Assembly: GCA_021209875.1 (NCBI GenBank)
Contig: JAGYVD010000006.1
Span: forward strand, 3,224,001 to 3,288,000
Direction: 5' to 3'
Length of the DNA stretch: 64,000 nucleotides
Source: Rosellinia necatrix
Taxonomy: Eukaryota > Ascomycota > Sordariomycetes > Xylariales > Xylariaceae
The notes under the pieces are model-generated. The model was given only the letters and a program-made list of their open reading frames with translations, did not search any database and had not been told where the DNA came from. This document shows positions 1-63,372 of this stretch, in pieces (within the stretch, counting starts at the first letter, position 1; every line of letters begins with the position of its first letter). The translations under genes were made by a program, and so were the position numbers.

Positions 1-38
1 TATAATATATATTTTATATTTTTATAATATATTTTTTA
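1..38 (-). repeat. Inner 38 bp of left LTR, M copy 1 (fully RIPed)
   Basis: Aligns without gaps to 7153-7190, the end of the right LTR. The two differ at 11 positions: 8 C-to-T and 3 G-to-A, all toward A/T on this side, with no transversion. The rest of this LTR lies upstream of the window. Confidence 0.85.
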
Positions 39-6987: not shown

Positions 6988-7190
6988 TAATACGCGCGTA
7001 TAAAAAAAACGCTTATATAAGCTTTTTGTTTAAAATGCTATAGCTTGTAGTTATAAGCACAACTTAATTAAGCTTAGCTTTATATATATAAGCTTTAGCT
7101 TATATTTAAATAAAACTTTAGCTTAGCCTAGATTTACTAGATTTTTATTTTTTATAATATATATTTTATACCCCTATGGTGCACCTCTTA
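6988..7190 (-). repeat. Right LTR of M copy 1
   Basis: A 203-bp sequence homologous to 45,133-45,335 (same strand), and to 12,492-12,693 and 38,443-38,643 (opposite strand). The outer end keeps G and C (CCCCTATGGTGCACCTCTTA at 7171-7190), whereas the equivalent inner end at 1-38 has lost them. The ends correspond to TG...CA after allowing for RIP. Confidence 0.88.
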
Positions 7191-11395: not shown

Positions 11396-11707
11396 TATTA
11401 AATAAGCTTTATATATATAATATATATACTATTTATATATAAAATAAAATATAACTTTTATTATACGATATTTATTATATTTAATAATTTTATTTAAATA
11501 ACTATTATATGTAATATTATTTTAAGTTTTATATAATAATTCTGCTAGCGTACAACCTATTAAAATAACAGCAATAATACAGCTTATTTTATATATAAAG
11601 CATACATGCTGTATATATATATATAACATGTACGTTATATGCTTATATAAAATATATGCACGTATAACAGCTGTAAGTAATTATAACTAATTGCCATAGT
11701 TCTAACA
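11396..11707 (-). repeat. F-family LTR, RIPed, without partner
   Basis: This 312-bp sequence is the reverse complement of the F solo LTR at 30,497-30,809, with RIP-type differences. It sits inside the M-family copy that resumes at 11,708. The right flank is ATTAT and the left flank ATTAA, so there is no exact target duplication. The left side is not M sequence. It is therefore most likely one end of a truncated element extending left, not a solo LTR. Confidence 0.75.
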
Positions 11708-12491
11708 ATTATTATATTATTTATAAACATTTTGCAGTATTTTTAATATATTTTAAGAAAATTATTTATATAGTATTATATATAAGGTAAAAATTATAGA
11801 ATTTTATTACTATAACGCAGTATTTTTTATTTTTTAAGCTTAATATTATAAACTAGTTTTTAAAATCTAAATATATTAAAAACTAATAAAAAATGTTATT
11901 ATATCAATAATAGTTATAAAATGTTTTTTTTAAAAATTTAATTATTTCTGCTTATAATAATAATAAATAGTTATTTAACACAGCTATTTTATTAAAATCT
12001 TTTAAGTTTATAATTATTTAGTTTTTTATATTATTATATTTAAAAGTTCTGTTTTATTTAATATTAATTATTATATTATAAATATAAAATATATTAATAA
12101 AGTTAATTTATTAACTTATTTTAGAAGTTTTTTATAAATATTATTATAAAATTTATTAAAAAATCTATATATTTATAACTAAATAAATATATGTAATTTA
12201 TAAGCTTAATGCTTTAGTTTTATTAATTTTTATTAAGAAAGCTTTTATTTACTGTTTAATTAATATATTAATTATTTTCTTATTTTTTAAATAATAAAAG
12301 CTTTAGTTATTTTTTAAAATTTTTAATTATACCCGTTTTTTAATATATATATATATCTTTATAAAAATAATTATTTTTAATATATTTATAAATTGTTTAA
12401 TTTTTAATATAAATATAACTTTAAAAAATTTAAACCGTGCTATTTTTAATATTACTATATTTTTATTTTTTTGTTTAAAAGAATTTATTAT

Positions 12492-12693
12492 TGAGAGGTG
12501 CACCATGGGGGGGTGAAAAGTGTATTGTAGAAGATGAAGATCTAACTATTCTGATCTAACTTGTGGATCTAGCTAGGTGCGTGGGCCAGGGCCCACTTAT
12601 TAGGCTAGTCCCAAGTGGTGGGGTGGTGGCTTTGCCACGCTACAGGTGGGGCTACAGCGCTTATATAAGCGACTCCCCCGTCGGCGCGTATCA
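12492..12693 (+). repeat. M-family solo LTR with TSD ATTAT
   Basis: A 202-bp GC-rich island starting TGAGAGGTGCACC and ending GCGCGTATCA, flanked by ATTAT at 12,487-12,491 and 12,694-12,698. Host M sequence reads through on both sides when compared with copy 1 near 3526. It contains perfect inverted repeats: GTGGGCC-AG-GGCCCAC at 12,581-12,596 and CGCTTATATAAGCG at 12,658-12,671. It is essentially free of RIP, unlike the element it sits in, and serves as the least mutated reference for this LTR. An M-family LTR has thus landed inside another M-family member. Confidence 0.92.
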
Positions 12694-13648: not shown

Positions 13649-13907
13649 TATAATAGGCTATGCCTGAAAATGCATTTATTAGAGTAGCAAATAAAGTTTA
13701 TTTTCTAGCTAAATAGCAGAAGTTATAAACAATATATATATAGCTTGTAAAACATAGTTTTATAAAGCTGGTTAGTTTTAGTTATATTAGTTTAAGTTTA
13801 ATAGTTAGTTTATAAACTATTTAATAATTATTTAAAATAAAAATATATAATAGTTTATTTATATTAGCTAATACGTTAATATTTTTTTATAAGCATTACT
13901 TATAATA
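13649..13907 (-). repeat. Left LTR of E element
   Basis: 259 bp, homologous to 35,684-35,942 and to the reverse complement of 48,506-48,764 (strand is relative to that solo copy). The outer (left) end keeps sequence such as AGGCTATGCCTGAAAATGCA. The inner (right) end is strongly RIPed. Confidence 0.9.
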
Positions 13908-16409: not shown

Positions 16410-16679
16410 TGTAATAGCTGTAATAATAGCAGTTGGAACAATGCCTAACTATACCTATATATTAAAAAAAAAAACTAAAGTTAAAAAAAAAAAAAAACTA
16501 TATATAGGGCTAACGGCTGGAATTTCTACTTATATATATTATTAGCTATTTATTATATAACTAGCCTATTTATTACATTTATTATTTTATACCTGTACTT
16601 GTTTAGCTAAGTAGCTAATTAAAAATTAACTAGTTAGCCGGCTAATTAAAAATCGCTATTATAGCTGTAAGCTATAACA
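16410..16679 (-). repeat. 3' LTR of A element
   Basis: 270 bp. Its outer (left) end keeps AGTTGGAACAATGCCTAACT, while its inner (right) end is AT-converted relative to the partner LTR. It is homologous to the isolated LTR at 42,232-42,504 on the other strand. Confidence 0.9.
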
Positions 16680-16690
16680 ATCCCCCTTCT
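16680..16690 (-). other. Polypurine tract of A element
   Basis: On the minus strand the 11 bases preceding the 3' LTR read AGAAGGGGGAT. This matches the polypurine tract that primes plus-strand DNA synthesis in LTR elements. It kept five consecutive G residues despite RIP around it. Confidence 0.6.
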
Positions 16691-19600
16691 GTAAAAAAAT
16701 TTAGCTTAAGTTTTTAGCCGCGCGTAAAACTAAAAACATGTTAAACTAATTTTTAAGTTGTTTATGCTATATATAAAGCTTAAACTAGCGATTTTTAAAT
16801 TAATATTTTTAAGCAGTAAAAAAATACTTTTAATATATATAATTAATTAAAATTTAAAAGTTTTTAATTTTTAGTTTTTATTTATTACGTTAATTAGTTA
16901 ATTTTTATTTAATTTATTTTTAATTAAATTATTTATTATATTATTTACGCTGCATTTATAACTTTAGCTATATTTTATTTTATAATATATTATTATTATT
17001 ATATATTTTAGCAAATATATTTTTTTAGCTGCTTTAATTTATTTTTATAATTATTTTAACAGCTTTGCTTTTTAAATATTTTTATAATATTTTTTAGTTT
17101 AATTAAAACGTTTTTAAATTAGCTGCTAAATATTAATTATTATTATATTTTTAGCTTGTTTATAATATTTTATAAAATAATTTTTTTTTAAATTTTTAAT
17201 AACAAGATTTTTTTTTTTTATTTTTTTTTTTAGCGTTTTATTAACTATTTTTTTTTAGTTAAAATATTTTTTATTTAAACAGCAGGTCGTTTATATATTT
17301 TATAATTATTTAATATAAAACTAGTAGTTTTTATTATATTATTAATAGTTTTAGTTTAAATATATTAAAACAATTAGTTTAAATATTAATAATTTTATAA
17401 GCTTGTTATATTATTAAATAGTTTAATTTATTATTAAAATAATTAGTTTATTTTTTTTTTTTTATATAAACATCTAGTTTTTAATTATAAAATCTAAGTT
17501 TTATTAATATTTATTAATTTATATAATTATTTGTTTTTATATTTTTATATTTATATTTTTGTTTTTTAATATAATTGTAAACTTTTTATAAATACTTATA
17601 TTTTTTTTAAAATAGTTTTTTTAATTAGTTTTTTATAATTATTTTATTTTTATTTAAGCTTTTAATTAAACGTTATATTTATCGGCTTTTTATTAGCATT
17701 TTTTTAAAATAGTTTTTTAAAGCTTTATAAAATAAAAATGCTTAAATTATGTTTAAAGCTAGCAGTATTTTTAACTAGTTTTTTAAAAATAATTAATATA
17801 TAATTACAGCTTTTAATTTATTTATTAATATATTATTTTTATTTATTTTATTAATTAATAATATTTTATTATAAAAAGTCTAGTTTTATATTATATATTT
17901 TTAATAATTTATTTATAAAATTAGCAACAAATTATTTTTTTATTATTAACTACTATTTTTAGCTATTTATATATTTAATAAAAACTTTTATAATATATTT
18001 TAGCAGTATTTTTACTGTTATAGATTTTTATATATAGTTGTTTATATTAGTTTTAATAATTTATTAATTATATAAAAATTATATTATTTTTATATTTATT
18101 TTTAAAAAACTTTTAAAGTTAATTATTATATATTATTAAATATATTCTAGCATTAATAATAAAATTAGTTTTTTAATATTTTATTATAAAAACTTTTATA
18201 AAGCAGCAAAAATAGTTTGCTATATATTAGTTAATTTTATAATATAGCTTTAACTATTAATAATGTTAAAATATTAAATGTTTTATTTTTTATAATTTAA
18301 ATATACTGTTGTTAATTTTATATAAATTTTTTAATTATTTAAGTTTATAAATTATTTAATTTAAAAACAACTAGTTTTTTTATATAATAACAAGTTTTTT
18401 AATATTAATTAATTAAAGTTTTTATTAACTTAAGCTTTTTTAATATTTGTTTAAACTAATATTATATTAATTTATTTTAATATTACGTTTATAAATACTA
18501 TTTTTAATAATAATAAAAATATAATATTTTTATAATATATATTTTATATATATTTTTTTTATTTTAAAGTTGCCGGCTTAAAAAAGCTATAGTTTTTATT
18601 TATTTTTCTGTTGTTTTTATATTTTTAAGTTTTTATTAATTTAAAAAATATCTGCTATTATATTTTTTAATTTTAAATAATATATAATATTAAAATTATA
18701 ATATATAATTAGCTTAGTTTATTAAGCTTATTTCAAATTGAAAATTTTTTACGCTAAAATATTTTAATATAATATAATTTATAATAACTAAAACAGCTGT
18801 AATTATTATAAGCTTATTAACTTTGTTTTTAATATAATAGTTTTTAATAACAGCTAATATTTTTTATTATAAATACTATAGTTTAATTTTATATTATAAA
18901 AGTTTTTAAATAAAATATAACTAGTTATTATAAGTTGTTTATTATTTTTGTTATAACAGCATGCTAGCTATTATTTTGTTAAATATATTTATTTTTATTT
19001 ATATTTTATTTTTATAATTAAAATATTTTAATACTAGTATATTAATTAGCCTGTTTTTAATATTTTAAATATATTTTAACAAACTTTTAATTATATTAAG
19101 TTAATTTTTATATAAATTAAGTTATTTAATAGTTTTATTATTTAATTATATTTTTAAATAAATTTTTATAAAAGTTATAAAATTTAAAAATAAATATATT
19201 TTTTAATAACGTTTTTTTTTTTTTTAGGCGTTTTTAATTAAAAATAATTTTAATTTTATTAAAATTAACTTTTATTTTTAGTTCTAATAATAAATTTAAA
19301 AACTTAGTTTTTTTATATAAAATTTATATTTTTTAAATTAGTTTATAGTTTTATTTTTTAAAACGTTATAATATTTTATTAATATAATATTAATATTTTA
19401 GTTTATTATTTAAATAAATTAAAATATTATTAATATAAGCTATATAAAAATATTTAAATATTTTTATAATATATTATTAATATATTTTTAAAAATAGCTA
19501 GCTTATTAATTAATTTAAAAATAGTATTTTAAACTAATAAGCTTTATACTAAGTTTAAAAATAATTAATTTTTATTTTTTTATAATATAAATATAATAAA

Positions 19601-22600
19601 ACGTTTATTTAATATTAATTTTTATAAATATTTTAATTTATATTATATAAGCTAATATTTTTTAATTAATAGTAATAAATAATAGTTTTTTAAATTAAAA
19701 TATTTAATTTTTATAATTAACGTATAAATATAAAAACCTGTTGCTTTTATATATAAAAATATAAAAGCTGCTTAAAAAGCTAGTATAAGTTTTATAAATC
19801 TTTTGCTAAATTATTATAAATATATTATTAATATATTTTAGCTTTTTAAATAATATTTTATATAAAAAGCTATATTTTAATAATTTTAGGTCTTAGTTTA
19901 ATATTAAATAATAATTAATTTTTAGTTTATATAAAAGCAGGTTGTTTAAAACAGTTTTTAAAAAATATTTTAATATTTATAATAAGCTTTTAAAATAATT
20001 TATAATAAGTTTTTTTTAGTTCTGCTTTATTTTTATTTAATAGTTTATTTTAAATTTTTATTTTTATATTTTATTATTTTGTTAATTTTATATAACGTAG
20101 TTATACTATAATATATTATATTGTTTTATTATAACATTATATTAAAAGCTATAGCTTTAATAGTTATAATTTTTATAAATTAATGCTTATATTATTTAAT
20201 AACGTTTTGCTAAAATTAATACAATTTTTAAATATTTTTTTAAACGGAGTTTTTATTTTTAATTTAGTTTTATTATTTTTAAAATTAAGTCGGTATTTTT
20301 GTTTTTGCTTAATATTTTTTTATTTTATATATTTTTATATAGTTTTATTTTTTATTTAAAATAACCGTTAATTTTAAAGCTTTAAAATAATTATTAAAAT
20401 AAGTTTAAAAAGCTTTTAAGTTTATATTATTTATAGTTGGCTTAATTTTTAGCTAAATAATTTTTGCTATATTTAGCTTAAAATGTTTTATTTTTGCAGT
20501 TTTTTTTTTGCTGCTTTTAATTAAATCGTTTATTTTTACGTTTTTTATTTTTGCGGTTTATTAGCTTTTTTTTTTAAGCAACGTTTTTTAATATTTAAAA
20601 TATTTTAATAAATCGCCTGCTTTATTTATTAAAATTTTAAAACTTAATATTTTAGTTTTTAATTATTTAAAATAAAAGTTGTTTATATAAAAATTTATTA
20701 ATACGTTATAATAATTATAATATTTTTTTAATAATTACGTTATATTTTATATTAATTATAATTAAAAAGCTTTTTATATTGTTTTTTTATATTTTAAAAT
20801 ATGCTTTTAAAGCTAGGTTTATTAATTAAATTAAATTACTGTTATATTTAGTAATAATAGCTGGTTTAAAGCTTGTTATAGTTTTAAATTTTAAATATTT
20901 TATTATTTAAGCAGTAAAATTATATTTATTAAAATATATATATTTATTTTTATATCGGCTAAAGCTTTAATAAATAATATAAATTTATTATTTATTATAA
21001 TATAATTTATAAAAATAGGTTTTTTTAAAATATTTTTAAAAAATTAAATAAAATTTTTTATATTATATTATATTAAATATTAATATTTTCTGCTTAAAAA
21101 AAAGTTTATTTATTTTAAACTGTTTTTTTTTTTTTTTGTTTATATTTTTATTTTATATAGTTTATTTTTATAGTTTTTATAAAAATAATGCTAATATATA
21201 TATTATTTAATTAATTAAAATTATTTTTATAAAAATAATTATTGCTATAATATTTTTATTTATAATAAATAAAACATTTGTTTTTAAAATAAAAGCTTTA
21301 AACTAGTTTAATTTTAATTTAGCGTAAATTTTTGTTTTATTTTTATTTATTTAATAATAATAACGCTTTTATTATTATTTTTAATATATAAGCGCTTTTA
21401 AGTCGGAAACTATTTTAAGCGGCTTAAATTAAAGTTTTTTAGCTTTTTTTTTGATTTTTTTTTTATAAAGCTTTATTTTAAATAAAATTTTTTGTTATTA
21501 ATAGTTATATAATTATATATATTTATAATAAACAGTAAAATTTATTATATTATTATATAGTTTGTTTATATAAAGCTTATTTAAACGTTTAAATAATTTA
21601 TTATATATATTCTATTTAAAATTTTTAAGTTAATTTATATTATATTAGCTTATTAAATAAATTTAATATAAAATAAAATAAACTTATTATTTATAGCTAT
21701 TTTAAATTTTAATATTTAATTTTAGTTTTTTATATTTATTAAAGTTATTATAAAATAAAAAAATAGTTTAAAACTTTTAACTAGTTTTTAGTATTAGTTT
21801 ATTATAATTATTAATAATAAATAATATAAAGTTTTTAAAGCTTTATTTTTATATAGCTGGCAATATAAGCAATTTTTTAATTTATATTAAAATAATCGCT
21901 ATTTTTAATAAGTTTGTTTTTAAAACATAAACTAATGCTTAAATTTTATTTTTAATTTATTGTTTATTAACTTTTGCTTATAAAACTAATAGTTTTACAG
22001 CTTTGAAAATTAATTTTAATTTTTTTAATATATTATAAGTTAAAAATACTTAAGTTTAGCTTAAATATAATTTTTAATAATTATTAAATGTTCTGTTTAT
22101 TTAAATAAATATTATAATAATTTAGTTTTTAAAATTTTAATTTTTTATTTATTTTAATTAAAATATAATTTAAGTTAGCTTTAACTTTTTGTTTTATATG
22201 CTAAACTAATTTATTTAATATAATATTTATATAAAATTATTATTTATTTTATTTATTAAATTAATAATATTTTTAAAATATTTTAAGCAGTATTAATAAA
22301 TAATAAATAATATTTAAATTTATAATATATTTTTAAAATAATTATAAACTAGTTTTATAAACTGCTAAAAGTTTATAAAGCTATTTTATAATAAAATACA
22401 TGTTTTTTTAAATATTATTATTATAAATATTATTTTAGTTGTTTATTAATAATAAAATAAACTATATTAATTTTTATTTGTTTTATAAAGTTTTTATAAA
22501 ATTTTATAAAAGCCAGCTCTATGTAAGCTTTAATTATTATTTTAAATAATATAATTTTAATATAAAAATATTAATTCGTTTTTTTTTGTTTTTATTTTTG

Positions 22601-22888
22601 TTATAACTATTATTTTTATTTTTAAAATGTTCTGCTGTATTAATATTATTTATTTATAACGCTAACTTTATAAACTTTAAAAACTAGCAATAAAGTTTAT
22701 AATAATTATATTAACTAACGTTTTAAAATATTAGTTTATTTAAATCGTTTTTTTTAAAACGTATTTATCGCTTAATTTTTATTAAAAAATTAAATTATTT
22801 TTTTGCTATAATATTTTTAATATATTAATTAATTAGTTGTTTAAAAAATTTAACGTTTTTTTAAACAATAAAAAATAAACTTTAATTT

Positions 22889-23177
22889 TATAATAGCTGT
22901 AATAACAGCAGTTAAAATAATGTTTAACTATATTTATATATTAAAAAAAAAAACTAAAATTAAAAAAAAAAACTAAAATTAAAAAAAAAAAAAAACTATA
23001 TATAGGGCCGACGGCCGGAATTCTTACTTATATATACTACTAGCTATTCACTACATGACTGGCCTACTTACTACATTTACTATTCTATACCTGTACCTGC
23101 TTAACTAGATAGCTAATCAGGGATCGACTGGCCAGCCGGCCAATCAGAGATCGCCATTATAGCTGTGGGCCATAACA
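22889..23177 (-). repeat. 5' LTR of A element
   Basis: 289 bp. It is longer than the partner mainly through one extra copy of an A-rich 19-bp unit near 22,955-22,990. Its outer (right) end is well preserved (GACTGGCCAGCCGGCCAATC region), whereas the equivalent inner part of 16,410-16,679 is RIPed. Confidence 0.9.
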
Positions 23178-26458: not shown

Positions 26459-26670
26459 TGAGAAGATTAGTATAAGAGTAGAAAGAAAGATGCTTTTATT
26501 AATTTCTGCTAGGTAGGGAATTTTAATAAGTTTAGAATTAACTTCTGCAGAGGTGGCCGTGGGCTATTTGTTGCCAGCCGTAGCTTATGCAACTTATTTT
26601 TAGCTTATTTAATTTAATAATATATAAGCTAATAGCTTAATTAATACGGTTTTTTTTAAAGATTTTATTA
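26459..26670 (+). repeat. Left LTR of D element
   Basis: 212 bp, starting TGAGAAGATTAGTATAAGAG and ending TTTATTA. Compared with the right LTR its first 39 bases are preserved (eight G here are A in the partner). Its last 24 bases are RIPed (ten C/T or G/A changes). Confidence 0.9.
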
Positions 26671-29600
26671 AAATTCTAGCTGACAGAAAAACAGCTATTG
26701 TTTTTAATAATATGTTATATTGTTTTATAAAGCTGTTTTTATGTTTAATTTTTTTTTTTAAAGCAGAAGCTGTTTTTTTTAATAATTATTTATAATTTTT
26801 TTAAATAATATAGTTAATTTTAATATATTATTAGTTATATTTATATTTTTAGTTTTATTATTTAATTAAATACTTAAATTTGTTTTTTATTATTATAATG
26901 TTTAAAAATCTGTTTAATTTTATATATTTTTTATTATTGCTATTTAAATATTTATATTAATTAGTTTTTATTAGTTTAAATATTAGTTTAGTTTATTTAA
27001 AAAATTATTTTAGCTATATATATATTTTAAATAAGCTATTAATATTATTAAATAAATTTTATAACGCTTTAAAAGTTTAATTTATAAGCTAAATTTTTAA
27101 CGTTTTTTTTATTGTTTAAAGTTTTATTTATTATTAAAAATATTTTTTAAAAATTTATTAAATAAATAATATTTATTATATAAACATAATAATATTTTTT
27201 ATTAAAAATAAATTATAATATATAATATTTGCTGTTATAATATTTTTAGTTTATGCTGCAGCAAGATTTATTATTAGCTTAGTGTTTTATTTAAAATAGT
27301 TTTTAAAGCTTTTATTTATTTTATATTTAATTAATTAAATTAATTAATAATAAAGTTTAAAAGTTTAAAAATTTAAATTAAAATAATTATTTATATAAAA
27401 TAAACTATATAACTTATAACTATATAGTGTTAAAATTTTATTATAATATTAAATATAAATTAACTTAATTAAATTTAAAGTTTTTATAATTATAAAAATA
27501 TATTATTAGTTTAATAGTTTAGTTTTTTTTTTAATAATTTATTATTTTATAAATAATAAGCTATAGTTATTAATAGTTTTATATTTAAAGTTTTTATATT
27601 TTTTTAAAATTAAATATAAATTTTAGTTTTAATTAAAAATAATATTTTTAAAAGTTTTTAATTATTTATTAATAATTATTTTATAAATATATTAGTTTAG
27701 TTTTTAGTTATATATTTTTATTTTTAAAATAAATAAGCTTTATTTAAATATATAATATAATATAATTATTATATAATTATATATATTATAATATTTTTAT
27801 TTATTTATTGTTATAAAATATTTTTAATATTTATTAAAAATAGTTTTAATATAAAATTAATTATTATTATTTATATAAATAATATATTTTTAAATATATT
27901 AATTTAAAACTTTTATTAGTTAAGATCTGTTTATACAATTAATATTACAACTTAAATAATATTTAACGTATTTTTAATTAATTAAAACTTATAATAAATA
28001 AAAAATCTTTAAGATTTTTATTATGTTTTTAAACCTGCATAATATTTATTATTATATATAGTTTTAAATATTTATTTAATTATATTATATAAAACGTATA
28101 ATTATTTTATTTTTTAATATTAGTTATAAATTAAATTATTTATAATAAAAAAAAAGCTTAAGTTTAAAAAATGTTATAACGTTTTTATTGTTTTAATAAA
28201 ATTTTAAAATATTTAGCTTGTTTAATATTTTATTATATTATATATTAGTTTAATAAATTTTTTTAAATTCTGTTTTTATTTATTATTTAACACTGCTTTT
28301 ATTATATATTTTATTATGTTTTATATTAAGTTTAATAGTATTAGTTTTTTAATTTTTATAACTTGTTTATTTTATTTATAACGTTTTATATTAATTTAAG
28401 TTTGTTTAATATATTTAATATATAATTTAATTTTTTAATAAATAATATATTTAATATCTATATTAAAAAATATATTAAAAGTTAATTAATTAAATATTTA
28501 CATTATTTGTAGCTGCTGTATTTAATAATATTTAATCGATTATATTTTTAATTGTTAAATTATTTATAAATATAATTATATTATTTTTATTAAATTAAAC
28601 TATTATTTATAGTTTTTAGCCGCTTAAATAAAATAAGCTATTTTTAATTTAATTAGTTTATATTTAGTTTTAACTTATAATAAACTATAATTTAAACATA
28701 TAATTAGTTTTATTTATATTAATAAAATTAAGCTTTTAAACTTTTAGTTATATTTTTATTTATATAAAATAATATAACTTTAAAACTATATTTTTAGTTT
28801 TATTTATTTATAAAAAAGCAGCTTTTTAAATCATAATATTATAATATTATTTTATAACAAATAATATTTTAAATAGCTTTAAATAAAACTATTTTTATTT
28901 TTATTAGTTTATAATATATATTATAAATATAATAAATATGTTTTTTTTATTTATAAATTTTTTTTTACGTTTTTTAATTTTAAAGTAGTTCTGCTAATTA
29001 AATATAATATAAAATCAGGTTATAAAAAATCTGCTTATTTTAAAATATTTTTAAAAGCTTATAATATTTCTAGAAAAACTAATTATTAAAATGCTTATAT
29101 TTGTTTAGCTGTAGTTAATAGTTTTAAAACGTTTACGCGGAATTTTAAAAGCTTTATAAATAAATAGCCGATAAAAACTTTATAAAAAACATTATAATAT
29201 TTTTTTATAATAATATAAAATTATTTTAAAATATTTAAAATAATTTTATAACTATTAAAGTTTATAATAATATTATTAATAATATATTAATAATAATATT
29301 TATATTTATATAATAGTTAGTTTATATATTTTTATATATATGCTATAAAATTATTATATTTTATTAATACTACGTTAAATTGTTTTAAACTATAAAAACT
29401 AATTGTTATAAATATATTTTTAAATTTAAAATATATTAAAATTAATAAGAAAATCCTGTTGCATTAATAATTATTATATATTTTTGTTTAACAAGCTTTT
29501 AATTATTTTATTTTATAAAAATAATAAATAACTGTTTAAAATTACTATTTTATTAATTTTATATATTTTTGCTATATAATAAAAACAAAATAAATAAAAA

Positions 29601-30496
29601 TATTAATTTGTTTATTTATTATAACTAATTTATTTTATACAGCTTGTTATAAATATTGTTTAATATTTTTATATTATGTTTATTAAAAAATACTGTTTTA
29701 AATTTGATTTAATTTTTTATTAATTATTAATAAAAAATATTTTAAGTTGTTTTTTTAAAAATATTTATTTTTCGGTGATTTATTAAAATATTATAAAATT
29801 CGATTATTTTAATAAATTAAAAGCTTTAAACGTTTTTTAGTATATATATAAATATTTTTTTAATAATAGTTTTAAAAAGTCGCCTGGTTTTTAATACTTA
29901 AAAAAATATATATATATTTTAATTTTAAGTTTATTTTTAATATTAAAAGTTTAGCTTAAAGTTTTTAAAGCTTTTAAATTAATTATTATATTAAATATAG
30001 CGTTTATAAAAAAAATACTTTTTGTTGCTACGTTTAAACGTACTGTTTTATACTTAGTATTTTTTTATATAATATTAAATATATTAATTATTTGCGCGTT
30101 TAACGTAAAAATTACTATAAAGTTTAATATATAATTTATTTTATTTAAATACACGATTATTTTTATGTTTAATATTATATTAGTTATTACTACAGTTAGC
30201 AAAAAATTTAGCTTAAACTTTATATTAGTTGCAATAATTATATTTATTAAAAGTTATTTATTAGTTTTAGTTAAAACTGTTTTTGTTAATAATAAAATAG
30301 TAGCTGCAACTATAAAAGTTATTATTATTAATTTTTAAAAGCTTATATATATTTTATTATTTTTGTTTTTTTAAATTTAATTTAGCTTAATATTTTTATA
30401 AATTTTAACAGTTTTTATTAAAATATTTTTTATTAGTATTATTTTAAAAGTTCTGGCGTTAATTATGCTATATATACTGTTTTTATATATAGCTAT

Positions 30497-30809
30497 TGTT
30501 AGAACTATGGCAATTGGTCATAGTTATTTACAGCTGTTGTATGTGCATATGCTTTATATAAGCATATGGCGTATATGTTACATATATGCATACAGCATGT
30601 ATGCTTTGTACGTAAGACAAGCTGTATTATCGCTGTTATTTTAATAGGTTGTACGCTAGCAGAATTTGCGTGTAAGACTTGAAATAATGCTACGCTCGAT
30701 AGTTATTTAAACAGAATTATTAAGCATAATAAACATTGTCTAACAAGAAGTTGTATTCTGTTTCATGCGTGAACAGTACATGCATCGCATGTACAAAGCC
30801 CATTTAACA
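30497..30809 (+). repeat. F-family solo LTR with TSD GCTAT
   Basis: A 313-bp sequence starting TGTTAGAACTATGGCAATTG and ending CCCATTTAACA, flanked by GCTAT at 30,492-30,496 and 30,810-30,814. It carries perfect inverted repeats, including GTACATGC-ATC-GCATGTAC at 30,776-30,794 and one centred near 30,560 (CATATGCTT...AAGCATATG). It is far less RIPed than the D element around it and than its sister copy at 11,396-11,707. No internal retrotransposon DNA is left, so LTR-LTR recombination removed the body. Confidence 0.93.
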
Positions 30810-33800
30810 GCTATAAAATAAAAGCTTTTATTATTTAATAAAAGTTTATATTTAATCATAAAATAAACTTTTTTTTTGCTTTATAGTTTTATGTTTTTTA
30901 ATTAATAGTTTTTATATATATTTATAACTATAAATAAATATTTTAAAAAACCATAAATTTATTTATTTTTTAGCTTAATAAATAAATATTTCCGCTTTAT
31001 AGTTAATTATAGTTTTATATAAATATTAAAAATTGTTATTAAATAATATTTTTAGTTTTAAATAGTTTTTATTATTTTTTTTTTATATGTTTAAATATTT
31101 TAAATCTTTTAATTTTATTTATTTTTTAATATAAAAATAAATTTAGCTTTTTTTAAGTTCGACTAATTTATTTTTTAAACGATAAATTTAATTTTATTAA
31201 AAGCTGTTTTATATATTAAAATATTTAAAAGAAATTTGCTAATAATAGTTTTTTTAATATTTAGGTCGTTATAAATTTATTAGTTTTATTTAATTAAAAA
31301 AGCTTAATATTAATCTGTAGATATATATAATTTAATTAGAGTGTTTTATTATATTTATTATTAATATTTAGCGCTTTAATTATTAAAATTTTGCCGTTAA
31401 AAATATTGTTAGCTGTTTTATATATTATGTTAAAACATATTTTTAACGTGTTATAATTTATTTATTTTTTTATTTAATAGTTTTATTTTTAGCTTTAATA
31501 TAATTTTGCAAGTGCTTAAAAATAAGTTATATAAAAATAGTTCTTAAAAATAATACTTATATATACGTTTTTATATATAAATAAAAAAATATTTTAATTT
31601 TTTTAATTTAATATAAAAGTTATATTTTTTATATATAATTTTAAAATAATTTTTAATTTATAAATTTAATAATATTAATAACAAGTAAAAGCTAAGTTTA
31701 GTATTAAATAAAAAAAGTGCGTTTTTGCTATTATTTTGTTTAGTTTTTATTTATTTATATTATTGTTTGCAAAATATATATAAAATAAACGTTGATCGTT
31801 TTTTTTTTAATTTTAGCTATAATTTTTATTATTTAAATATTTGTAATTTTAATTTTAATTATAACTATAGTTATATTTTTGGTTACGTTTTTAATTGTAA
31901 CTTTTTAGTTTTTAATTATAATATTTTGTTTTTTGATCGTTTTTTTTGGTTTTTTAATAGTTGTTATAATTTTAGTTCTAACGCTTACGGCTTTTTTTAT
32001 AGCTGCTATTTTAATTGTTGCAACTTTTATTCCAGCTTTAGTACTGTTTATAGCTACGTTTACAGCTGTTTTAGTTTTAATTTTTAAAATATTTATTATT
32101 TAATTAACGTTTTTTTTAATTAAGTCGATAATTATAGCTTTTTTAATAAGTTGTTTTAACAGCTAGTATTAAATTTGCTAATATTATTTTTAGTTTAATG
32201 TTAAAATATATTTTTTTAGCTTTATGTTTTAGTTTATATCAGCTGTTTTTTATTTTATATATATAATCGGCTAAAAAATTTTTTAATTTGAAAAGTCGTA
32301 TATAGTTTAAAATTATGTTTTTTTATTAGTTGTAAATATTTTTTATAATTTCGTGCTAGTTTTTATTGTTTTTTTATAGCGTTTTTATAGTGTTAATATA
32401 TTATATTTAACGTTAAATAAATTAAAAAAACGTGTTTTAATTTTCTGTAATATTTTTTTAAAATAAGTTTTTTTTTTATAAACTTTTAAAACGTTTTATT
32501 AGCTTATGTTTTAAATTTTTTTTATAGATTTTTAAATAGTATATTTAAGCCTGTTTTTTTTTATATATAATAATTGCTTATATAAACTTTGCTGTTTAAT
32601 TATAATAAAGCTAATTTAGCTAATAAATAATTAAATAAATTAATTATTTATTAAACGTTTAATATTTAAATGCTTTTGTTTTTAATAATAATTTAATATA
32701 ATTAATAAATAAATAAACGTTTATATAAATTATGTTTTTTATTAGTTATATTTTTATTATTAAAGTTTTTTATTTTAAATTAAAAATATTAATATTATTT
32801 CGTTTAATTTTATATATGTTTTTTTTATTTTAGCTGCTATGCTTAATATAAACTATTTTTATTAATTTAATATAGTATAACTATATTTGCTATTATTAAA
32901 ATTATTTAAGCTAAAAAGTTTAATAAATTATTATTGTTATAATTTTTATTATAATAATAATTATTGTTTTTGTTTTTATTATTATAACGTTTATAAAAAT
33001 CGTTTTAATATTTAATAAAAGTTCTAAGTTATTATTGTTTTTAAAAATTTTTATTTAATAAAATATATAAAAAAATATAATAGTTGCAGCATTTAATTTA
33101 TTTAAAATATTTATAATTATATGTTATATATTAGCTAAAGCATTAGTTAATATAGCTGTTTTATTTTCGCTTTGTCGGCGGGCTTTATTTTAAATAACTA
33201 ATTTACAGCTTTATTAGCTTTAATATTATTTTTAATCGGCTGCAGTTTTAAATTTTATATCGCTGGAGATTTAATATTAATATTTTTAAAAGTTTAAAAA
33301 CTTTTAAACCTGTTTAATTAATATTAAAACTAAATTAAAAATATTTTTATAGTTTTTATATTTTTATATAAAATATTAATTAAAACGTTGGTTTATTTTT
33401 AATGTTTTAAAAAATAATTAATAGTTTTTTGGTTTAAGCTAAATTGTTTTAGCAGCAGTATATTTTTAAATAAAAATCGTACTGATTTAAAATATTCTGC
33501 CGAAGTTTTTTTAAAATTGTTTATATTTAAGTTTAATATATATAATAAAATATAATAATATAATATTATTACAAGCTTAAAAAATTAAACGTATTATTAA
33601 AAAATATTTAAGTATATATATAATATATTTAAATAAATGTTTTTATATATAAATATTATTAAGTATTATTTTTAGTTTGTTAGCTTATAATTTAAAAGCT
33701 ATAAAAATAAAATAAAATAAATTACGCTTATAAAAAATAAAATAATAAAGCTATTTTTTAAAAAATTTTAGTTTTTAATTATAATATATATACTTGTAGT

Positions 33801-34187
33801 TATTTAATAAATATATTTATTAACGTTTTTTTAATACTAAATAAAAATAAATAATTTGCTACGTTTATAAATTTAAATAAATTTTAATTGTTAAGCATGT
33901 TTAAATATATAATTTTAATAATAATAACTTTTAAAATATAAAAATAAACTACTAAGTATTTTTTAACAACTATTTATTTATAAGTTTTAATAAAATATAT
34001 AATTTATATAAAAAAATAATTATTAAAATAATATTTTATTTATATTAATTATTTAGTTATAGCTAAATTAAAACGCGCGCGTTTAAATTTTCAGCTATAA
34101 ACAAAATTTTTTAACTTTAAAAGATTTAAAAAATAGTATTAGTTTAGTTTAATAACAAAATCTGTTAGTTGCGTAAATATATTACTT

Positions 34188-34399
34188 TAAAAAGATTAGT
34201 ATAAAAATAAAAAAAAAAATACTTTTATTAATTTCTGCTAAGTGGGAAATTCTAGTAAGTTTAGAATTAACCCCTGCAAAAGTGGCCGTAGGCCACCTGT
34301 TGCCAGCCGTAGCCTATGCAACCTATTTTTAGCTTATCTAATCTAACAATATACAAGCCAGTAGCTCAATTGATACGGTCCCCTTCGGGGACTTTATCA
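34188..34399 (+). repeat. Right LTR of D element
   Basis: 212 bp. The outer (right) half is well preserved and ends with a hairpin GTCCCC-TTC-GGGGAC (34,378-34,392), seven bases before the terminal CA. The inner (left) end is RIPed relative to 26,459. The hairpin may act in transcript termination or 3' end formation of the element; that is inference. Confidence 0.9.
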
Positions 34400-35683: not shown

Positions 35684-35942
35684 TATAATAAGCTATGTTT
35701 AAAAGTATATTTATTAAAATAATAAATAAAGTTTATTTTTTAGCTAAGTAGTAAAAATTATAAACAATATATACGTAGCTTATAAAACATAGTTTTATAA
35801 AGCTGGTTAGTTTTAATTATATTAGTTTAAGTTTAATAGTTAGTTCATGAGCTATTTAGCAATTGTTTGGGATAAAAGTGTATAACAGTTTGCTTATATT
35901 AGCCCGTGCGCTAATACTTTTTTATAGGCACTGCTTATAATA
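35684..35942 (-). repeat. Right LTR of E element
   Basis: 259 bp, the same length as the left LTR. The inner end is RIPed; the outer end (about 35,840-35,935) keeps blocks such as TTAGCCCGTGCGCTAATAC. It is followed directly by the target duplication ATATT and then M copy 3 sequence. Confidence 0.9.
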
Positions 35943-38442: not shown

Positions 38443-38643
38443 TAAAAATATATTATAAAAATATAAAATATATATTATAAAAATATAAAACTAGTAAATA
38501 TAAGCTAAGCTAAAATTTTATTAAAATATAAGCTAAAGCTTATATATATAGGGCTAGGCTTAATTAAGTTATATGTGTAGCCACGGGCTATAGCACCCCA
38601 AGCAAAGGGCTTATATTAACGCTCCTTCTACGCGCGCGTATCA
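38443..38643 (+). repeat. Right LTR of M copy 3
   Basis: 201 bp. The inner (left) ~35 bases have every C and G of the reference LTR replaced by T and A. The outer ~100 bases keep GC-rich sequence such as GCCACGGGCTATAGCACCCC and the end CGCGCGTATCA. It is equivalent to the truncated LTR at 1-38. Confidence 0.85.
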
Positions 38644-41600
38644 CATATATTATTAAATAAATCCATGCTTTATAAAAATTAAATTATTTATTAGCATTAA
38701 TTATAAACGTATTAATTTTACTAGCTTATAAAGCTGTTTATATTTAATTAAATAAAAAATAAAAACATATTAGTACTATAAAGTTTGTTATTTTTGCCCC
38801 AGCTTATTTATATTAACAAAAAAAATAAAAAACTTTTATATTTATTAAAATTAAAATTTCTGTAATTTAGATTTAAAAAAAACTATAAACAAATATATTT
38901 ATAAAAAAACTTGCACAACATAAAAATAAGCTAAACGCTACTATTAAACTTATTTAATTCATATATAAAAATACTGCATTAACTAAAATAAAAACTATAG
39001 CTAAAACAATAATATTAAGCAATATTATAAAAAAAAAGTTGATTTTTTATTAATATTTAACTAATTTTAATAATAAATATATAAAATATTATAACATTAC
39101 AGCTTTTCTAGCAATATAACATCTGTTTAATCGTATTAATAGCAAAAACGCTGCAAAAAGCGCAAACTTTACTGCAGCTATTTAAAAAGTTAGCATAGTC
39201 TAGAACGAACAAGTTAATACTATTAAAAAATTACAAATAAATAAACAGATTAAAAAACAAAAAAACCTTGATAAAAACACTAATAAAAAAAAAAGTATAT
39301 AAAGCACTAGATAACGATATTTAAATTAATATCGACACGCAGAAAAAAAAATAGCAAAAGCAAGATTAATATTAACACATTTTAATATATAACAGGATAT
39401 AATATTAATGTTATAGAAATATTAAAACAATAAAATATTATAAAAAATAAATCTAATCGCTTTTTTATAAAATATTTATAATTAAACAAGAAATAAAAAA
39501 AGTGTATTATAAACAATCTTTAAATTATATTATATAGCTGCAAACTATTAATAAAATATTTAAGAAGCAAAAAATCAGCTTTAAAATATTTTTTTTTTAA
39601 ATTGCTACTATAAAACGCAACAGACCAGCATAAATTTAAAATAATATAATTAATATTAATTATTAAATAATAAATAATTTATCCGTTATATTTTTGTAAT
39701 ATATTAGACGATTAGTTATTATTTTAATATTAAAGCTGCGATTTTATAGCCAGACCGCCACTTAATTATATATATATTACAGCTGTTGTGCTTAATTAAA
39801 ACAATAATCAGCTTAATAATATTGCAGCTTTTTTATATACAATATTTATAAAATTATAACTAATAAAACTATTTTATATTATACGCGCTTTAATTATAAT
39901 AATAGCAACAGAAAAAATATATGCAGACTTTATTAATATATATAATAATAAAAACTTTGCTACTTTATTCAAGCTAAAAAAACTGCTAATAAAAATTATA
40001 TAATACAGTTAAACAACGTTATATAAAAAAAATATTATTTAAAGTTTGCTTAAATTAATTAAAGCTGTTATAATAAAGTATTTAAAACAACTAACAAGGA
40101 TATATTGGGGTCCTGTATGGTGATCTAGTGAAAATAGCGAATTACAGGTAGAAGGAAGGACTGGCCATGCCAGCCAGCCGAAGGCTGGCTAGAAATAGCC
40201 AGTGGGCTACCCTTATCTAATCTATTGCGGGTCGGCTAGGCCCTGCGGGCCTAGCCTAGCCGGCCTAGCCTATCCTAGGGTGGGTCCTCTGGACACCCCC
40301 TACCTGTCTGTATTAACAACGTTGCATACACCCAGCCATATAACATATTTTAACTAATTTATAAATCTATAAATAAAACGTAGCGTTATAAAAAAAAACA
40401 GGCAAAAAATTATATAAAAAATTATTAAAGCAGTTAATTAAAACGTTATATTAACAAGCTAACATCATAGTTTATACTTTTTTTATTATATTAATTTTAA
40501 GTATTACTATTAACCTGACAATAATCTAAATTAATAAAATATTTTATATTACTAAACTAAATATATTTATTTTTTAATTAAATAGCTTAAAATATTTATA
40601 TAAATATTCTTAAGTAATTTTAAACAAATATAATTATTAATTTTTTAATATTATTTTATATAAAAAAACAAAAACTAAACTTTTTAATTTATTTATTTAA
40701 TAAATAAAGCTTTTATTAACATTTAAAATAAAACAAGCTAAAGCAGTACTAGTTTATAGCTTAATTATTAATTATAAACCTAAAAAAGTTTTTTATTTAT
40801 TTTATAAACATTTTATAATAAATAAATAAAAAATTTAATATTGACTATAAAAATCTTATAATATTACAAGCTTAAAAATTCTTTTATAAATTAGCCGTAT
40901 TAAATATAAAAAATTATTAATTTTTTTAATTTTAAAATAATTAGAACAAAGCTTTAAATAATATTAGTATTTATAATACAGTTTATATAAACTATATTTA
41001 AAATATTATTACATTTATTTTTACTTTTAATTTAGCACATTTATTAAAATAATAATTAAATATTATAGTTATTACTTTATATAAAACATAAATTATAGTT
41101 TTGCAGCAAAAATAAATAAACTATTTAAATCTGAAATATATTATAATTTTATTTAAATATATACAGTTTAAAAAGCTTAAAATAATAAATCTAACATTTT
41201 TATCGCCGATTTTACCTGATCTAGCAAAACAGGATTTATTAAAAATAAATATTTAGAAACTATTATATTAACTTATAAATTACATATAAATATTTAAATA
41301 GGTAATACTGCTATATAAAATAAAAAAAATTAAAAAACAGATCTATTAAATAGCTAATTAAATTAAAATTATATTATTTTAAGCAGGCCACGATTTAAAC
41401 ATTTTTAAAAAATAAATAAAACAATAAATATTATTATTATAAAAAAACATATAAAAAGCAATAAAAATATTACGCCAGATTTTAATACGTTAATTATTAA
41501 GCAGTTTATTATATTTAAAATTACATAAAAATAATTAAAACTTTAATAACATTATTTATTATGTTAAAACAACTTTAAACTATATAAAAATAAAGCCGGA

Positions 41601-42231: not shown

Positions 42232-42504
42232 TGTCATGGCCCAAGGCCATGGTGGCGATCTCTGATTGGCTGACTGGCCGTCCGGCCAGCCGATCCCTGA
42301 TTGGCTCCCTAGCTAGGGCAGGTACAGGCATGGAGTGGTAAATGTGGTAGGCCAGTCACGTAGTGAATGGCCAGTAGTATATACAAGTAGGAATTCTGGC
42401 CGTCGGCCCTGTATGTAGTTTTCTCTTTTCTTCAACCTTAGTTTTTCTTCCCAATACATAGGTATAGTTGAATCTCTTCAACTGCTGTTATTGCAGCCAT
42501 TACA
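42232..42504 (+). repeat. Isolated A-family LTR at a truncated M copy
   Basis: 273 bp, starting TGTCATGGCCCAAGGCCATG and ending GCAGCCATTACA. It is the best-preserved copy of the A LTR and is read in that element's sense orientation. A hairpin CATGGCC-CAA-GGCCATG lies at 42,235-42,251. Flanks ATAAA and ATTAA are not identical. M-family sequence starts right after it, but the sequence to its left is not the expected M continuation. It may be a solo LTR at a later deletion or rearrangement junction. A frame of about 60 codons here on the minus strand is an artefact of its GC content. Confidence 0.8.
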
Positions 42505-45335
42505 ATTAAACAAGATAAAAAAACATTTAAAAATTATATTTAAACTATTTAAAAATAAATATGTAGTTATATTATTAATAAAATCTTTTATTGGTTATTT
42601 TTAATAAACTTATTTAAATTTAAAATAAACATATTTAAAATAATAATACTAAAAAGCTGCGTTATAGCAATTTATAACTTAGCTTTTTTAAATTAACTAA
42701 AAGCTTTTAAATAATATATAAATTTAATAGAATTTTTATATAGCTTAGTTTTATGTTATATAAAGCTAATCGAGCTGCTGCAAAAAAAAAAAGCCGCTTT
42801 ATTAGCTAAAAATAAGTAAATAAAACATATTAAAACAAAAAAACGAAATAAACATAAAACATATATAAAAACTAAATATTATAAACTAACCGTTTTAAAA
42901 ATAGCTTTATTTAAAGCTATATAAAATTTTATATATAAAAACTATTTAATTTTATTATAACTTATATAAAGAATTATTTTTATAAATTAATAAATTAATA
43001 TAAAAAGTTTTTAAGTAATAATATTTTATTTAAAGCTAAAAATATATAAAAACTAAAAACAACAATCTTTAGTATTAACGTTTAATTAATAATATTTTAA
43101 ATAAATTATTAATTCAAATAAAATAAACTATAAATTTTAAAACTAAAAATTATATGTTGAATTTAAACAGCTAAAAGCTGTATATAATAATATAATTTAA
43201 TAAAAATTAATAATTATATTAATAAATTATTTAGTAATTAAAAATATGATTAAATAAACAATTTTAAAAACTGCAGCTATTAAGCGTGCTAATTATAAAC
43301 TAATTAATTTATTTATTTATTTATTATAATATAAACTATACGTATATTATTTATTAACTAAGCTAAATTATATATCAGCCGCTTTTAATTATTTATAAAT
43401 AATATTAAATATTTAAAAAGCTAATAACAAACTAGTAAAATAAATAATAAACTTATATTAAATATAATATAAAAAAATTAAAAACCACGATTTATATATT
43501 TATGTTAGAAGTAATTATAAACAAAACTTTAAAAATCATATTTTTAGCGGCATATATAAAAACAATAAAATATATAAATATTAAAAGATTTAAAAATAGT
43601 TTTAAAAAAAGCAATAAAAACGTTATAATTTATTTTAAGCTTAAATATTTTTTAATATTACTATAAACAGATTAAAATATAATATATATATAAATATAAA
43701 ACGTTTATATATTTTAATTAATATAATAAAAAAATTTAAAATAAATATATAATAAAAATAAGATTATAATATTTAATAAATAATATAAATATTAAAATTA
43801 TTTATAATAACTAATAAAATATAAATAATAAAAGTTATATTAAATATTATAAAATATATAATTTAAACCAAATTAATAAACAGTTATTTATAAAAAACTA
43901 AAATTAATTAAACTTAAAACTTATTATTTATATATATTATAAATATAAACTTTATTTTAATATTTTTAAAAATTAAAATTAAATGTATTTTTAATAGTTA
44001 AACAAAAAAACTATATTTTAATATATATAATGTTATAATAATAGTTTTATATTTTATTTTAAAATATATATTATTAATTTTAAATATAAAAATATATAAC
44101 AGAAAAATAAAACAATTTTTAATTAAACAATTTTTATTAAAAACTAAAACATTTTTAAAAATTTATTTTTAATAAAAACTAAAAGTTTATATCTAATTTT
44201 TAATAAAATATATAAAATTATTTAATATTAAGCTAATAATAATAGTTATATATTATTTATAAGCAGACAGTTTATTAAAATATAAAAACTAAATAATTAA
44301 AATAATAATATTATATTATATATTTATTAAACTAAAAATAAATTAAATAAATATTATTTTTTTTATAATAAAATTTAAACATTATATATAATAATATTAT
44401 ATATTTAACTTTTTATAAATGGTTTTTAAGTTTAAATTATTTAATATATTAAAAATATTAGTTAATTTTAATAATATTAAAAAATTTTAAATATATGTTT
44501 TTTACAAATATTTATTTTAAAACGTTTAGTTTGCAATAAACTTTGCTTAAGCTGTAATAAAATATATTTATAACATTAAACACTGCTTATTAAAATTTAA
44601 TAAAAAATCAAGTTTATTTATATTTATATAAAAATATTATTTATTTAAATAATTATTAAAAAATATTTTTAATAAAAATTAAAATTTTAAATAATTAAAT
44701 AATAAATAAAAATTTAGTTTATAAATTAAATTTTTTAATAATTTTATATTTATTTAATAATTTTTAAAAATATTTATAAATAATATTTAAAAACTTAACT
44801 TTTTAAATAATAAATGCTGTTATTTAAATTTATAAAAATTAAATAAAATCTCGGTAAAAAAATATATATAAAATAAAAATTGTTTTTAAATATTATTTTA
44901 ATTAAAAACGCCATAGTTTTAATTATTTTATTAAATAAAAAATAAAATTATAAATATAATAAATAAATAATAAAAAGCAACTTTAATACAGCAAAAACTT
45001 ATTAAAAATATTAAAACTAATATAATTTACGTTTTATTATATAAATAAATATTAAAAAAAAAAGCTGACTATAATAAATTATATAATAAACTTTGCTAAA
45101 ATTAACGGAACTTTTTAATCAGCGCGGCTTTTTAATACGCGCGCGTAAAAAAAACGCTTATATAAGCTTTTTGCTTAAAATACTATAGCCCGTAGCTATA
45201 TACACAACTTAATTAAGCTTAGCTTTATATATATAAGCTTTAGCCTACACCTAGGTAAAATTTTAGCTTAGATTAGATTTGCTAGTTCTATATCTTTTAT
45301 AATACATACTTGACACCCTTATAATGCACCTCTTA
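42505..45335 (-). mobile_element. M-family LTR retrotransposon, copy 2, 3'-side fragment
   Basis: About 2.8 kb matching 4350-7190 of copy 1 in the same orientation, including the terminal LTR. The remainder of the element is missing at the A-family LTR. It is RIPed with a partly different set of mutations from copy 1, so the pair shows which sites once held C or G. Near 42,760-42,900 both copies show a Lys/Arg/Ala-rich frame interrupted by stops. It is vaguely like the basic C-terminal tail of pogo-type transposases, but too degraded to assign. Confidence 0.82.
45133..45335 (-). repeat. LTR of M copy 2
   Basis: 203 bp, homologous to 6988-7190 in the same orientation. The outer end (45,240-45,335) retains more G and C than the inner end. 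Flanking bases 45,336-45,340 are ATATG; no partner LTR remains. Confidence 0.85.
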
Positions 45336-48505: not shown

Positions 48506-48764
48506 TGTTATGGGCAGTGCCCATAAGGAAGTATCAGCGCCCGGGCCGATACAGGCAAACTGCCATACACCCCTATCCCGAGCAATTGCTGAATAGCTCG
48601 TGAACTAACCACCAAACCTGGACTAGTACAACTAGAACTGACCAGCCTTATAAAACTACGTCTTAAAAGCTACGCATATACTGTTTATAACTTCTGCTAC
48701 TTAGCTAGAAAATAGACCTTATTTGCTACTCTAATAAGTGTACCTTCAGGCGTAGCCTATTATA
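48506..48764 (+). repeat. E-family isolated LTR, almost free of RIP
   Basis: 259 bp, the same length as the two LTRs of the E element, in the opposite orientation. It begins TGTTATGGGCAGTGCCCATA and ends GTAGCCTATTATA. A perfect inverted repeat (9-bp arms, 1-nt loop) lies at 48,508-48,526, at the terminus. Neither flank matches the internal ends of the E element, so it is a solo LTR. The 5-bp flanks (ATTTA, TTTAA) are not identical, and the duplication may be eroded. Confidence 0.85.
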
Positions 48765-56315: not shown

Positions 56316-56346
56316 TAATAGATCCCTAAGTGGGTCTGTAAGATAA

Positions 56347-56386
56347 TGTACTTCCGTATCTTAATCTGTACTCCTGTATCTTAACA
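56347..56386. repeat. Two 20-bp tandem units at the AT-block boundary
   Basis: TGTACTTCCGTATCTTAATC (56,347-56,366) is followed directly by TGTACTCCTGTATCTTAACA (56,367-56,386), with 16 of 20 bases identical. It lies about 30 bp inside the normal-composition side of the boundary. It could be the edge of another mobile element. Confidence 0.7.
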
Positions 56387-56831
56387 AATATGCTGTGGGA
56401 CATCTTCATGCCGTCTGAGTAATATGAACAGTGCACCTACAAATAATGGAACAAATGAAACTCGACACAATGTCCACGCACAAGACACTGCTGAAAGTCC
56501 CAGACGCCGGATCTTGGTAACACCGTGAAATTACGTTAACGACGTTTTCGATTCATAAGTTGTTAACAAGGCATGTACCCCCACTAGTATAGGATTCCCC
56601 TATAACCAAACTTGGTAAATGGGGATAGGTTGACCCAGATGGCCCCTGCCTTCCGGGTTCGGTCAGCGTTATGCGCGCTGATAGTTGTTACGGGTGAAAT
56701 ACCTGATGGGTATAGTCAGGGGCTTGTTGACTTGATATCCCTAAGAGTGGCACGCCAACTATAGATGAGTTTATACGTTCTGGGAGCGCTGACAATATCA
56801 ATGGTACATACAGATCTGCCGGGGGGTAGGA

Positions 56832-57125: not shown

Positions 57126-57155
57126 ACAATATATACTCGAGTATACTCCCGTCGT

Positions 57156-63158: not shown

Positions 63159-63372
63159 GCGGTATGGGACTACTCAGTTCGGATTCGGCCCTGGCCACAA
63201 CATTGCTGAGCGCAGCAATGTCATCACTGCGATTCACGATAAACTGCATGAGCACAAGCCCTTTGTTGGATATGCAAAAGCCAAAACGAGTTTTGCGGCC
63301 AACGCAATACCAGAATACCCTGGCCCAGATCGGACGGCCTCAGCGCTGAAGTATTTGCGATGTGAACTTTAG
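63159..63372 (+). pseudogene. Unidentified coding-like segment 1 after the VPS54 fragment
   Basis: A stop-free plus-strand frame ending at TAG 63,370-63,372. It encodes a sequence with FGFGPGHNIAERSNV, IHDKLHEHKPFVGYAKAK and NAIPEYPGPDRTA. Composition looks protein-like, but there is no start codon of its own and I do not recognise the family. The minus strand is also open over much of this interval (63,224-63,592), so the coding strand is not certain. Confidence 0.3.

Follow-up and report, generated by a model that had tools for sequence, protein, structure and literature searches.

Repeat-induced point mutation weakens toward the outer edges of long terminal repeats in three retrotransposon families of Rosellinia necatrix

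Introduction

Among the closest described systems is repeat-induced point mutation (RIP) in Neurospora crassa, where work on minimum homology (PMC4858203) describes C-to-T and G-to-A changes in repeats, a requirement for a certain length of homology, and mutation that is mainly limited to the shared stretch. Here we analysed a 64-kb window of Rosellinia necatrix DNA (contig JAGYVD010000006.1, positions 3,224,001 to 3,288,000, forward strand; "the window" means this whole stretch), in which retrotransposons called D, E, A and M carry long terminal repeats (LTRs) that are more heavily RIPed at their inner than at their outer ends.

The Neurospora study differs from ours in that it used engineered close repeats in one species. 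It contains a mutation-poor distal stretch of 130 bp in one interspersed-homology construct, and its accessible portions describe no general outer-edge fall in natural elements. For the crapaud element of Podospora (PMC10787394), as here, the LTRs of full copies are RIPed while solo and fragmentary LTRs largely are not, which the authors credit to small size; the escape of solo LTRs from RIP is thus already known. That study treats the GC content of whole LTRs and, in its accessible text, does not compare the inner and outer ends of paired LTRs. Position along LTR elements also matters in tetrads of Zymoseptoria tritici (PMC10294615), where the study reports no leakage into adjacent DNA. Leptosphaeria maculans (PMC2973834) shares with our data a distance gradient of RIP at the border of a repeat, but there RIP extends past the repeat into single-copy DNA, whereas here it falls already inside the repeat. 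In the RIPCAL study (PMC2621366), RIP rose slightly toward the ends of one non-LTR family of S. nodorum, and long non-tandem rDNA repeats had stronger RIP in their centre. In the accessible literature that we searched, which may not hold every such report, we found no description of an outer-edge fall of RIP in paired LTRs.

Results

Reciprocal mutation in the LTR pairs of the window

Elements D (26459-34399), E (13649-35942) and A (16410-23177), of which A and D are nested in E, each have a pair of LTRs with ends reading TG/TA...CA/TA, where at mutated ends A stands for G and T for C. An exact 5-bp target-site duplication (TSD) flanks each of them (GCTTT for D, ATATT for E, TAATA for A), so that all three show the LTR pair, TG...CA ends and short TSD of LTR retrotransposons. 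The two LTRs of an LTR retrotransposon are identical at insertion. The exact TSDs indicate clean insertions, and the LTR pairs of D, E and A were therefore initially identical.

The first-pass annotation had read RIP as fading out at the outer edge of every LTR, each pair being preserved at the outer end of one copy and mutated at the same end of the other. Its counts for D were reproduced by alignment: compared with the left copy, the right one shows eight G-to-A changes in bases 1-39, and the final 24 bases of the left copy show ten C-to-T or G-to-A changes compared with the right. The E and A pairs showed the same reversal on alignment and on permutation of the mutated copy against position (D, 28 left-mutated and 13 right-mutated, P=0.00005; E, 26 and 16, P=0.00005; A, 36 and 10, P=0.0002). 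The A pair is reciprocal by permutation but not when divided into halves, its 5′ half having 8 changes against 8.

Comparison with an un-RIPed D-family solo LTR (L004, from contig C1) gave 41 differences for the left LTR of D, namely 27 C-to-T and 14 G-to-A, and 26 for the right LTR, namely 6 C-to-T and 20 G-to-A. All differences (41/41 and 26/26) are thus of the two RIP types, with no reversed changes and no transversions, and both types also occur in the 34 genomic pairs described below. Counted by thirds from 5′ to 3′, mutated sites in D were 8/27, 11/42 and 22/32 in the left copy and 15/27, 7/42 and 4/32 in the right. The corresponding values were 8/29, 20/35 and 38/46 (left) and 19/29, 16/35 and 19/47 (right) for E, and 17/31, 24/45 and 28/49 (left, nearly flat) and 20/30, 11/45 and 10/49 (right) for A. 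The ends that had been called preserved are so relative to the partner copy, but they are not free of mutation: in the first 40 bp, 5/16 C/G sites of the left D LTR and 13/16 of the right are mutated relative to the un-RIPed solo.

The annotation had extended the pattern to M. The inner end of the left M LTR (1-38) does carry 11/11 of the differences from the right LTR, but this is one half of the reciprocity only, because the left LTR runs out of the window. In the M-type LTR at 38443-38643, the inner 33 bases have 11/11 of the changes relative to the outer end at 7190.

The gradient in copies across the genome

Families D, E and A were searched for in the whole genome (49.1 Mb, 12 contigs). 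LTRs were chosen through the adjoining internal sequence, after which the neighbouring LTR was read, and this keeps the mutation state of an LTR from influencing its selection. Each of the six internal searches returned the 40 best copies by similarity, of which 20-30 were used. The 5′ LTRs of D came from 30 of the 40 main matches; two (L047 and L050) were excluded as incomplete, leaving 28 with the window copy. The 21 3′ LTRs of D are the window copy and 20 of the other 39 main matches, taken from the top, with seven skipped whose match fell short of the LTR. For E and A we took the window copies and matches 2 to 21 of 40 at each end (21+21 LTRs each). The total was 133 LTRs (D 49, E 42, A 42), and columns with many gaps were excluded from the site labels.

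The inner 60 bp were mutated more than the outer 60 bp in 129/133 copies (D 48/49, E 41/42, A 40/42), so that the claim for every LTR held apart from four exceptions. As the annotation had predicted, a positional gradient is present in copies elsewhere in the genome and in both LTR classes, and transversions in D have none (0.002-0.015 per base across seven 30-bp bins, alike in both classes). At positions 1-30 of D the mutated fraction was 0.29 in the 28 5′ LTRs and 0.88 in the 21 3′ LTRs; at positions 196-210 it was 0.73 and 0.12, respectively. The E and A LTRs follow the same pattern. Mutated sites numbered 248/1039 (D), 207/975 (E) and 214/997 (A) in the outer 50 bp and 696/1069, 647/939 and 577/982 in the inner 50 bp, the latter being 59-69% of sites. 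The outer-edge deficit is real and strong in the three families sampled.

Both LTRs had been sampled for 34 elements (12 of 28 for D, 9 of 21 for E and 13 of 21 for A), and 32/34 of these same-element pairs were reciprocal. Of the transitions in their outermost quarters, the outer copy had 45 and the inner copy 840; over the final 15 bp the numbers were 2 and 227. The reversal is seen with either type of change alone. By quarter, the ratio of mutated 5′ to mutated 3′ LTRs was 16:86, 57:42, 179:14 and 283:8 for C-to-T, and 12:251, 47:121, 105:26 and 220:9 for G-to-A. The 63 transversions in the same pairs (29, 15, 9 and 10 by quarter) showed no excess at both ends, and there were 95 indel columns, some of them at ends.

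Among the D copies classified by their flanks, no tandem elements sharing a middle LTR, with internal sequence on both sides, were found. As candidates for an LTR-free control, five DDE_1 matches of DNA transposons are present in the genome.

Shape and width of the cold edge

The shape was fitted with sequence context as a covariate and with single solo LTRs as the unmutated state. Relative exposure was 0.12-0.20 in the outermost 20 bp, stayed below 0.4 out to 100 bp, and reached half of the inner value at about 120-160 bp from the outer edge; both LTR classes start at about 0.1-0.2 on the outer edge and climb to 1 in the interior. The fall toward the element boundary is thus confirmed, but the scale of 30-100 bp first proposed for it is too short. 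Once position was added to the context model, the fit gained about 1000 log-likelihood units (from 8552 to 7480-7570). For D, a term for 5′ or 3′ class contributed nothing (×1.01, and ×1.07 in a second fit). Within the interior of D, GC was 0.25 over the 100 bp next to the LTR and 0.08-0.14 farther in.

Discrete tract ends were sought within single copies through the correlation of residuals between sites. This was 0.12-0.20 for sites up to 5 bp apart and did not exceed about 0.06 at greater distances. With correlation limited to about 5 bp, many rounds of a graded per-base probability fit better than sharp-ended tracts.

A model with a free effect per site was set aside in favour of the context model, because, with two LTR classes, it identifies little beyond the inner-to-outer rate ratio of each site. 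We do not claim the flat floor of 0.06 which it gave.

Solo LTRs and their flanks

The D solos comprised 20 of 40 matches listed and 8 distinct others, both sets favouring little-mutated copies; for E and A there was one solo each, from the window. The solo LTRs sampled are little mutated. All of the 20 further D solos retain their 5-bp TSD exactly and differ from one un-RIPed solo by 1-5 RIP-type changes, and 19/20 have immediate flanks with a GC of 0.07-0.26. The window solos had 11/114 (E) and 14/138 (A) labelled sites in the mutated state.

The few changes are not evenly placed. In 27 D solos, RIP-type changes affected 27/727 sites near the ends (about 4%) and 5/1217 in the middle, and in the A solo at 42232-42504 they affected 6/20 sites in the 40 bp adjoining an M-type element and 8/118 elsewhere. 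This slight end bias may reflect weak leakage or subfamily differences. Reverse-direction changes in the D solos cluster in the same stretch (160-200), so subfamily differences confound the solo counts. The exact TSDs of the 20 D solos speak against strong leakage into flanks. The DNA on either side of D copies is itself AT-rich, at a GC of about 0.13.

Three identical D-family solo LTRs lie on two contigs (L004:1497-1708; C1:944678-944889; C2:3104318-3104529), which suggests recent activity of the D family.

RIP signature and machinery

The target DNA is repeated, with at least 40 genomic copies for each of the six internal searches. CpA was preferred: the mutated fractions for CA, CT, CG and CC were 0.41, 0.35, 0.41 and 0.22 in D, 0.63, 0.46, 0.56 and 0.39 in E, and 0.61, 0.38, 0.29 and 0.24 in A, with CpA tying with CpG in D. 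Mean GC over kilobases 1 to 56 of the window is 0.128 and the TA/AT ratio per kb is 1.11-1.43, which is the usual mark of RIP.

A DNA_methylase domain was found at three places in the genome. The one at L181:127-2097 belongs to a RID-family DNA methyltransferase gene, whose best relatives among the top 30 listed are from Nemania, Xylaria and their kin (62-73% identity), in keeping with a host in the Xylariales; the relatives listed also include Apiospora proteins named "RIP defective" (46-47% identity). A second gene of similar build lies at L182:816-2703 and is presumably related to RID, as we assume from its EQT motif. The third match (C3:1441138-1442022) sits within an open frame of 2163 aa.

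Other features of the window

The LTRs of the window are listed in Table 1.

Table 1. LTRs located in the window
Feature	Position	Strand	Remarks
D, left (5′) LTR	26459..26670	+	outer end at 26459; pair alignment
D, right (3′) LTR	34188..34399	+	outer end at 34399; pair alignment
E, left (5′) LTR	13649..13907	+	pair alignment
E, right (3′) LTR	35684..35942	+	pair alignment
A, left (5′) LTR	16410..16679	+	pair alignment
A, right (3′) LTR	22889..23177	+	pair alignment
M, left LTR, inner end	1..38	+	remainder of LTR precedes window
M, right (3′) LTR	6990..7190	+	outer end at 7190
LTR of second, inverted M-type element	38444..38641	-	alignment to M LTR
Solo LTR, family E	48506..48764	-	GC 0.43; flank GC 0.10 and 0.14
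Solo LTR, family A	42232..42504	-	GC 0.49; flanks of GC 0.12
Solo LTR, M-like	12492..12693	-	GC 0.53; TSD ATTAT

The M-like solo was aligned to the right LTR of M with transitions tolerated and scored 77, against 14.8 for a reversed control. In positions 1-38643, element E, with A and D inside it, appears to split the inverted M-type element, and a second M-type copy lies in direct orientation at about 42507-45339. A GC-rich island at 40041-40380 (up to 0.63 per 100 bp) stands in the AT desert and does not match the LTRs of D, E, A or M; it is perhaps a solo LTR of another family. Outside the LTRs studied there is also a pair of inverted repeats of moderate GC (11448-11709 and 30495-30757, about 83% alike).

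At 56 kb the AT desert switches sharply to gene-bearing DNA (56000-64000, GC 0.36-0.66). This part has a 481-aa reading frame at 58860-60305 with EcKL and APH kinase-like matches, and a weak HIM1 match, below the cut-off, at 60680-61174. Scans of the window with Rfam and for tRNA genes gave no matches.

Discussion

We have observed a RIP gradient with mirror symmetry between 5′ and 3′ LTRs, for C-to-T and G-to-A separately and in three families, together with low mutation of the solo LTRs sampled and a RID-family gene. The explanation that we favour, and which we hold to be probable though not assured, is that RIP depends on a long stretch of homology between copies and that the probability of a hit drops near the end of the homologous tract. 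RIP would recognise a long homology block between two copies. Bases deep in the element would be covered by many possible blocks and mutated near saturation, while the outer hundred bp or so would have matching DNA on one side only, because the flank is unique to the insertion, with a mutation rate at the extreme edge of about 0.12-0.2 times that inside. An LTR would then record, in graded form, how far each base lies from where the duplicated tract stops. Being identical at insertion, both LTRs of one element form a matched comparison. A solo LTR (202-273 bp) would be near or below the required length and so little mutated. Under this explanation, homology length on both sides of a base would be the controlling variable. 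What we describe is a quantitative property of a known process and not a new system.

Several points weigh against a homology end as the cause. The published trend in Z. tritici tetrads (PMC10294615) is the opposite, since the most distal windows, making up 5% of the length of transposable elements, took 35% of the new mutations within them, mainly in LTR elements; the two might be reconciled if the cytosines still left in old elements are those at the ends. The outer zones are not clean, 21-24% of sites being mutated in the outer 50 bp. Two of the 34 pairs were not reciprocal: one belongs to a D element close to the end of a contig (L039/L079), the other to the A element of the window. The fits for E and A favour a 5′/3′ class term (×0.81 and ×0.62, respectively), so the mirror symmetry is imperfect there. 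In family A (42 LTR copies), stronger inner RIP went with weaker outer RIP (rho -0.55, P 0.00015), in D the correlation per copy had the opposite sign (rho 0.34), and in E there was none. All three families are LTR elements, and a cause specific to LTRs is possible. Finally, alignments of the families by outer edge, by inner junction and by relative position were indistinguishable, with the outer-edge alignment best in none of the four binnings tried. As the three are inseparable, the data do not show the outer edge to be what counts.

This last point bears on a rival that we regard as rather unlikely but as a serious contender, namely that only the long internal region is recognised. Mutation would then spread from it in cis into the adjoining LTR and die away over 100-200 bp, regardless of whether the LTR belongs to the recognised homology. 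In the four binnings, alignment by the inner junction was equal to or slightly better than alignment by the outer edge, and the bootstrap range included zero; leakage of RIP into single-copy DNA is described for L. maculans (PMC2973834) and Neurospora (PMC7296669), and the changes near the ends of D solos and beside the M-type element in the A solo point the same way. Yet the solos lie mostly in AT-rich DNA and their ends are only about 4% mutated, as against about 59-69% at the inner ends of LTRs, although this argument is weakened if the flanks had stopped being RIPed before the solo arrived. In D, moreover, GC goes on falling for about 100 bp on the internal side of the junction. A homology end and spill-over from the interior make nearly the same prediction here.

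The other alternatives fare worse. A process bounded by the transcript, with the mutated part being the transcribed part (R-U5 in the 5′ LTR and U3-R in the 3′ LTR), would give the same coarse pattern, the inner and transcribed parts coinciding in LTR elements. It also predicts that the shared R is mutated in both copies, whereas D positions 76-135 (0.16-0.24 and 0.07-0.22), E positions 101-120 (0.26 and 0.29) and A positions 81-120 (0.22-0.32) are low in both; site context lowers these bins too, which weakens the argument, and we consider this process very unlikely. Gene conversion from active copies, which the first-pass annotation had named as what could overturn its reading, would have restored the outer ends after RIP from un-RIPed LTR copies. 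Solo LTRs are available as such donors, and with some of the 95 indel columns at ends a rare conversion is possible. But conversion would have had to reach the outer end, beside a non-homologous flank, and still spare the inner end in 129/133 copies, and the 63 transversions of the 34 pairs show no excess at both ends; as a general cause it is extremely improbable. Base composition combined with mutation of one strand in each copy could mislead if D were taken alone, its labelled sites at positions 1-30 being only G and no C; it is ruled out by the reversal of C-to-T alone and of G-to-A alone.

Returning to the requirement for a homologous block, its size may be gauged from the width of the edge. 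In Neurospora, a homology of 155 bp can suffice for RIP between close repeats, and the number of RIP mutations tracks homology length from 220 to 520 bp (PMC4858203). With half-height reached at 120-160 bp, the edge would fit a block of about 250-300 bp. We tentatively propose, as an idea that could well prove wrong, that the cold edge is the footprint of a homology test in which a match of about 120-160 bp is needed on both sides of a base; this single rule would explain both the escape of solo LTRs and the cleaner edges of full elements, and would recast the end-hotspot of Zymoseptoria as mutations on the last cytosines left.

The gradient has practical consequences. An edge with several-fold less mutation than the interior biases dating by LTRs, the building of repeat families and LTR-based RIP indices. 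Islands of normal GC in AT-rich deserts may be mistaken for genes, and some of them are solo LTRs. The value of the finding lies in a natural measurement of homology sensing and in its disagreement with a published trend. The question of how a cell gauges DNA homology without recombination has been studied with engineered repeats in Neurospora, and LTR pairs would offer a similar measurement in any RIP-competent genome, with sequence, age and locus shared between the two copies as built-in controls.

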